Below are positions 61,132 to 62,109 of a DNA stretch of 64,000 nt, piece after piece; the first letter of the stretch is position 1; each line of letters opens with the position of its first letter. This DNA comes from Treponema primitia ZAS-2 (GTDB lineage Bacteria > Spirochaetota > Spirochaetia > Treponematales > Breznakiellaceae). A program made the position numbers and the translations under genes. The notes under the pieces are model-generated. The model was given only the letters and a program-made list of their open reading frames with translations. It had not been told where the DNA came from and did not search any database. The stretch spans positions 3,038,001-3,102,000 of the forward strand of contig NC_015578.1 in assembly GCF_000214375.1 (NCBI RefSeq), read 5' to 3'.

Positions 61132-61362
61132 GGGAAAATTCGGGATAAGGAAAAGATGAGTGAGGAGAGATAAGTTTATGATTTTTGGCAATAATTCGGG
61201 GAGAAAGACAGGATAGCTTTCCTCTCATCTCTCTTATCACCTTATAAACGCTGTGCGCAGTCTCACTACCTCTAAAAAAACAAAAAGGGTATCATCCGTT
61301 AGGTATTTTTCGGTATATTGTTCTCATAAAGTATTTGTAGTCGGGGTATTAAACCAGACTCA
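61132..61362. other. intergenic stretch upstream of moaC
   Basis: About 230 bp without a gene. It has partial inverted similarity around GAGAGATAAG and CTCTTATC (61160-61240) that does not form a clean stem. I see no Moco riboswitch that could lie within the moaC transcript, because the predicted start is at the ATG. Confidence 0.4.
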
Positions 61363-61393
61363 CTAAAAAAACCGCCGCATATAGCGGCGGTTT
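61363..61393 (-). terminator. rho-independent terminator of the HTH-H1-like gene
   Basis: 10-bp perfect stem AAACCGCCGC / GCGGCGGTTT with a 5-nt loop, followed on the minus strand by a run of T. It begins 4 nt after the stop codon of the gene at 61398. Confidence 0.85.
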
Positions 61394-61397
61394 AGTA

Positions 61398-61901
61398 TTA
61401 CTTCGCGGGAGCAGCCTTGGCTTTGGCCTTGGCAGGGGCCTTTTTAACCGCTTTCTTCACGGCTTTTTTAGCAACCTTCTTCGCAGGAGCTTTTTTGGCG
61501 ACGGCTTTCTTGGCCGGGCCTTTTTTGGCGGCAGAGGCTTTCTTCGCCGGGGCCTTCTTGGCGGGCGTCTTCTTGGCGGGTGCCTTCTTGGCAGGGGCTT
61601 TCTTAACAGGAACCTTCTCTGCCTTGTTAACGGTCTTTAAAATCGCCGCATTTTTCTTATCCTTGGAGGATTCTGCCAGTTCGTAGGAAGTTTGCAGGGC
61701 TACCCAATACTCAGGGGTCTTTCCAAAGAATTTGGAAAGCCTTTCTGCAAAGGGAATACTGATCTTGAGTTTATTATTAACTAATAAACGTGCCGCAGAG
61801 GGACTGATTTTAATCCCGTCAGCGAGTTGGGAAATAGACAGATTGTATTGAGCGGTAAGAGCTTTTACAACTGCACCGGGGGTCTGAGCAACTTTAGCCA
61901 T
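61398..61901 (-). CDS. HigA/XRE-type HTH protein with histone H1-like Lys/Ala/Pro tail
   Basis: 167 residues from the ATG at 61901, which follows AAGGAG. Residues 1-80 form a HigA-like DNA-binding domain ([20 protein letters not shown], then [33 protein letters not shown]). From about residue 95 the protein is almost only Lys, Ala, Pro with some Val, in repeats of KKAPA, as in bacterial histone H1-like nucleoid proteins. No HigB toxin is adjacent. A perfect palindrome over its promoter suggests autoregulation. Likely a DNA-binding nucleoid-type protein derived from an antitoxin; this role is inferred. Confidence 0.8.
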
Positions 61902-61919
61902 TGATATCTCCTTAATGGA

Positions 61920-61963
61920 ATAGTTATTATAATAACTATATCGACAGAAAGTTTTTTTGTCTA
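61920..61963 (-). promoter_or_regulatory. promoter with a perfect 20-bp palindromic operator
   Basis: On the minus strand the -35 box is TAGACA (61958-61963), the spacer is 17 nt and the -10 box is TATAGT (61935-61940). The palindrome at 61920-61939 has arms ATAGTTATTA and TAATAACTAT, without a spacer, covering the -10 box and start site. Confidence 0.7.
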
Positions 61964-62079: not shown

Positions 62080-62109
62080 AATCTCTAAAAACTGAAGTTT
62101 TTAGAGATT
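62080..62109 (-). other. long palindrome just after the NeuB-family gene
   Basis: Arms of 14 nt (62080-62093 with 62096-62109, starting AATCTCTAAAAACT) separated by 2 nt, placed 2 nt after the stop codon. There is no long U-tract after it on the minus strand. It may still act as a 3'-end stabiliser or terminator. Confidence 0.6.

Follow-up and report, generated by a model that had tools for sequence, protein, structure and literature searches.

In this study, we found that a 167-aa protein of Treponema primitia ZAS-2 joins a HigA-type helix-turn-helix (HTH) domain to a long basic tail of the histone H1 kind, and that this architecture recurs through a whole clade of one spirochaete family. 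The gene lies in a 64,000-nucleotide stretch of DNA (the window) from a single-contig chromosome of 4,059,867 bases. The sequence-only reading had proposed that an antitoxin may have been recruited to serve the nucleoid, and this is still the best-supported reading, with DNA binding predicted from sequence and structural models. Recruitment of an antitoxin fold is well supported by the absent toxin, the tail and the extent of the clade, and a nucleoid role is suggested by the anatomy of the protein. On balance, we slightly favour a stand-alone DNA-binding protein that is inherited with the chromosome, derives from HigA and has a nucleoid-associated or global role.

The gene, its two protein parts and its signals are placed in the window as follows.

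61398..61901, minus strand: tailed HigA-HTH gene, 167 aa, stop included
61659..61883, minus strand: HigA-type helix-turn-helix, residues 7-81 (TIGR02607, 2icp, AF2, Foldseek)
61401..61634, minus strand: H1-like tail, residues 90-167 (composition, pLDDT), predicted disordered
61908..61913, minus strand: ribosome-binding site AAGGAG, separated from the ATG by 6 nt
61935..61963, minus strand: predicted sigma-70-type promoter, TAGACA, 17 nt, TATAGT (10/12 matches)
61920..61939, no strand: perfect 20-bp palindrome ATAGTTATTATAATAACTAT, overlapping the predicted -10 box TATAGT in all but one of its six bases
61369..61393, minus strand: terminator hairpin directly after the stop codon (predicted fold)

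The start codon is the ATG at 61901 (minus strand), the predicted -10 box TATAGT occupies 61940-61935, and the span first proposed for the feature (61398-61963) is the ORF plus its promoter. The stretch 61360-61402, which holds the terminator hairpin, had a folding energy of -19.5 kcal/mol (z -4.7). A dedicated promoter, a good ribosome-binding signal and a terminator after the stop make the gene look like a one-gene unit. Its flanking ORFs are moaC-like and NeuB-like (names from reading the ORFs, with no search), in agreement with the earlier statement that no toxin is adjacent. An AT-rich inverted repeat at 62080-62109 (14-bp perfect arms, 2-nt loop), just past the stop of the NeuB-like ORF, is possibly a terminator.

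Both sequence and predicted fold placed the domain with the HigA antitoxins. TIGR02607 (antidote_HigA) matched residues 7-79 at 53.2 bits (also 55.4), exceeding its cut-off of 47.7, Pfam HTH_3 matched residues 17-66, and the best PDB sequence match was the HigA structure 2icp; PADLOC returned a weak HTH match only (E 0.034). Six helices were predicted (8-18, 23-29, 34-41, 49-59, 63-79 and 82-90), and the AlphaFold (AF2) model, built from 22 sequences, had a mean pLDDT of 93-95 over residues 11-70. Foldseek ranks 1-39 were HigA, GraA, PA4674 or HigA-like antidote chains, although the 2eby chains among them carry the title 'hypothetical'; their TMt was 0.74-0.89, and DNA-bound structures were among them. 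Sequence similarity over the cut-off, fold and HTH are shared with HigA antitoxins (TIGR02607; PDB 2icp, 3trb, 6chv, 7csy), from which the protein differs in having no HigB partner and in its long basic tail, whereas 15 outgroup HigAs stop 10-22 residues past the domain.

The tail, put at about 70 residues in the sequence-only reading, measured 78 aa, and the described combination of a HigA-type HTH with a basic tail was confirmed. Its composition (fractions: K+R 0.38, A 0.33, P 0.12, D+E 0.01) includes 30 Lys, one acidic residue and zero aromatics, and from residue 100 on the AF2 model is without structure, with pLDDT about 50. A basic disordered tail on a DNA-binding domain, which is a trait of nucleoid-associated proteins, is thus present as far as sequence and prediction tell. 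Histone H1-like HC2 and the Burkholderia H1-like proteins resemble the tail in composition, yet the protein lies far below the cut-offs of both models: Pfam HC2 (PF07382) gave 21.4 bits (29.4 in the genome search) against 40, and NF038053 gave 25.4 bits against 80. To our knowledge, neither family has an HTH domain. Another weak HC2-like stretch was seen in the same genome, at C1:2110621-2111133, within a 518-residue frame. We rejected the idea that the tail is the ordinary composition of nearby proteins, since a test on the last 45 residues was passed by 0 of 431 neighbouring ORFs (at least 120 aa) and by 82 of the 112 tailed family members described below.

When HTH proteins with Lys-rich tails were sought in other spirochaetes, the architecture recurred across one family, the Breznakiellaceae. 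Among its 195 genomes, 127 had a match at E 0.001 or better, some of them to ordinary HigA; the genomes G011, G014-G019 and G021-G027, of genera g8, g9 and g10, had none at this threshold, which suggests that some of the family lacks the gene. Our family sample, drawn from 98 genomes in 31 genera, took 131 of about 150 listed places; 129 of the 131 have a complete frame. Because about 11 of the about 19 places left out have open frames of at most 108 aa, our counts make short-tailed forms look rarer than they are. One of the places left out (G150:C56), whose 108-aa frame has no room for a long tail, adjoins HigB and by its position appears to be an ordinary HigB-HigA pair. In a phylum-wide search of 392 genomes the domain profile matched in 133, and most frames at the listed places outside the family span about 100-125 aa, but some measure 129-200 aa and a few lie near 377 aa. 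The closest 21 of 33 named records belong to Treponema or other spirochaete genomes and MAGs, which we take to come largely from termite guts.

Of the 129 complete relatives, 112 had a tail of at least 30 aa; these tails have a median of 66% K+R+A+P and a median net charge of +0.28 per residue, and 98 of the 112 carry at least +0.15. Eight of them are nearly neutral (0.1 or less), so not every tail in the family is H1-like. In three loci (L044, L062 and L067) the same domain bears another kind of tail, very long (152-166 aa), nearly neutral and rich in Lys and Asp/Glu. Tails shorter than 30 aa occurred in 17 of 129, 16 of them in genus g53 and one in g55; 11 of the 15 genomes with the short form show no tailed copy among the relatives read, so that one lineage can do without the tail. 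L028 and L137, two loci whose frames have open ends, were excluded from the tail counts and the tree, and the threshold was 30 aa for counts and 28 aa for tree labels. In the domain tree, built on 92 columns and with many unresolved forks, the 129 family rows formed one clade apart from 15 tailless HigAs of the phylum, among them those of T. primitia itself (support 98/97). The short-tailed forms were nested inside the tailed clade, which suggests that the tail is old and was lost secondarily; a tail ancestral to the group and lost several times is the simplest reading.

All 45 of 45 representatives of the domain matched TIGR02607 at E 0.001 or better. Of 129 alignment rows, 111 have R in column 38 and 105 have K in column 44, counts that leave out L028 and L130. 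The most constant parts are helix 4, F59, W66 and Q70, and in the predicted recognition helix R38 alone, so DNA contact seems to be kept while other positions vary.

The strongest competing explanation, which we consider unlikely though worth weighing, is a local sequence-specific repressor: an orphan HigA acting at its own or a few promoters, its tail just boosting affinity or site search. The HigA fold with a conserved Arg38 in the recognition helix would suit it, and so would the palindrome on the gene's own -10 box, whose reported position and perfection we confirmed at 61920-61939. Orphan antitoxins are also discussed in print: M. tuberculosis HigA3 has no toxin beside it (PMC7354431), as here, and no basic tail is reported for it in the part of that article consulted. 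For 120 nt of the same composition, the p value of a perfect palindrome 20 bp or longer is about 0.0014, a value that applies to one such stretch when 120-nt stretches abound in a genome, and the window holds just one other palindrome of at least 18 bp. Against a local repressor, even relatives in the genus do not share the palindrome: there the promoter boxes TTGAC and TATAGTTA are kept and only the left arm of the palindrome, which is the -10 region TATAGTTA, survives. In first-order Markov resamplings, the inverted repeat of 13 of 131 family upstream regions was equalled by no more than 5% of shuffles (about 6.5 such regions expected), and no shared family-wide dyad exceeded the controls (z 6.7 versus a shuffled maximum of 6.8). 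Allowing up to 3 mismatches, a search of the genome found the palindrome nowhere else, against four sites for the reversed control pattern. The palindrome was therefore rejected as a conserved operator, and a role as a functional one is unsupported; it may still serve strain-specific autoregulation.

Disorder of the Lys/Ala/Pro type is not specific for DNA, and some family tails are nearly neutral; the tail might accordingly act as a polyanion binder, mainly on RNA, ribosomes or condensates and not on the chromosome. We regard this as improbable, given that throughout the family a DNA-binding fold carries the tail and that lysine-repeat tails elsewhere belong to DNA-binding proteins, as far as the consulted parts of two reports describe (PMC7398561, PMC11229371).

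More improbable still is a trans-acting antitoxin directed against remote HigB toxins, in an anti-addiction role. It would fit the HigA ancestry and the presence of HigB in 24 of the 98 member genomes, but the other 74 had no PF05015 match at E 0.01, many genomes being incomplete, and HigB presence was not associated with the tailed gene (Fisher p 0.38). In the family as a whole, PF05015 was found at 60 places in 42 of 195 genomes. The T. primitia chromosome has two HigBs (C1:836047 and 2873258), both more than 200 kb from the tailed genes and each followed by its own tailless HigA, which again argues against action in trans. A HigB partner in tailed relatives, named beforehand as the finding that would speak against recruitment, was looked for in all 131 loci and found beside none, so that recruitment survives; adjacency is weaker for 16 loci with less than 400 nt on at least one side, the other 115 having at least 400 nt on both. 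With the exception of this single-contig chromosome, the contigs carrying the 131 genes had no PF05015 match at all. An adjacent or recurrent novel toxin was likewise rejected, because clustering of 607 neighbour ORFs revealed no small ORF recurring beside the gene across genera. The recurrent neighbour clusters (at least 4 loci) were mostly long ORFs, consistent within a genus and limited to one or a few genera.

The family genes combine selection on the folded domain with strong ribosome-binding and promoter signals. In 20 hand-picked pairs, domain dN/dS was 0.04-0.34 in the 18 that yielded a value (two were saturated), indicating purifying selection. The tail was looser (0.10-1.26, with one pair at 1.26 and one at 0.87), its composition nonetheless being kept. 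Agreement with the Shine-Dalgarno consensus over 6 nt or more was seen ahead of 93 of 131 family genes, against 38 of 265 neighbour genes even with alternative starts allowed for these. Promoter scores of at least 10/12 were found for 49 of 131 family genes and 11 of 211 neighbours, a contrast that is partly a composition effect, since 9% of shuffled upstream regions likewise score 10/12. The idea that the gene is a leftover of a disrupted toxin-antitoxin module and is decaying, which the lack of an adjacent toxin might suggest, is contradicted by the selection on the domain and the family-wide clade, and we give it almost no credence.

For the recruited, nucleoid-type protein that we prefer, the following course can be proposed. 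A HigA antitoxin ancestor would have parted from its toxin and acquired a tail that is disordered and strongly basic; a HigA-type dimer would anchor on DNA through the helix-turn-helix, and the Lys/Ala/Pro tails would neutralise and coat the neighbouring DNA, giving a presumably abundant protein with high-affinity, weakly specific binding chromosome-wide. In its fullest form, this would be an H1-like chromatin protein made from a type II antitoxin in one spirochaete family, its HigA fold freed of HigB and tailed before the clade diversified, binding the chromosome broadly and, through duplication, present as several paralogues in many genomes, a version that we put forward tentatively and at a little under even likelihood. 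The nearest analogues in design are HupS of Streptomyces, HupB of mycobacteria and TopA with a lysine-repeat tail. According to the consulted parts of the reports, a long disordered tail of lysine repeats comes after the folded DNA-binding domain in HupS and HupB (PMC11229371), and TopA is comparable in its tail (PMC7398561). However, the folded part of HupS and HupB is HU, whereas here it is a HigA-type HTH and HU has a separate gene in the same genome, so that the role is not simple HU replacement. Within Treponema, TrtA (TDE_0127) of T. denticola is a small XRE regulator whose mutant had 38 genes up and 153 down (PMC12724145); it can be likened to the tailed protein by description only, falls under COG1396, has 104 aa, and is described without a basic tail in the consulted part of that report.

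In the literature searched, we found no report of a lysine-rich tail on a HigA domain, which does not prove its absence in print, and spirochaete nucleoid proteins have seemingly been little studied. If true, the preferred reading would show clearly, and with a tree, that an antitoxin was domesticated to bind the chromosome; it would also mean that the design known from actinobacterial HU, a folded DNA-binding domain with an H1-like tail, was invented here independently. The short-tailed lineage would serve as a natural experiment on tail function. A second paralogue in the T. primitia genome (L002, C1:417098-417367) has 165 aa, the same architecture and 47% domain identity, sits on a different branch of the tree, and is flanked by acetyltransferase-like and membrane-protein-like ORFs (names from reading). 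In genus g53, one group of tailed paralogues (L098 and others, 5 loci) adjoins dnaX-like, YbaB/EbfC-like and recR-like ORFs, also named from reading; YbaB/EbfC is itself a nucleoid protein family.
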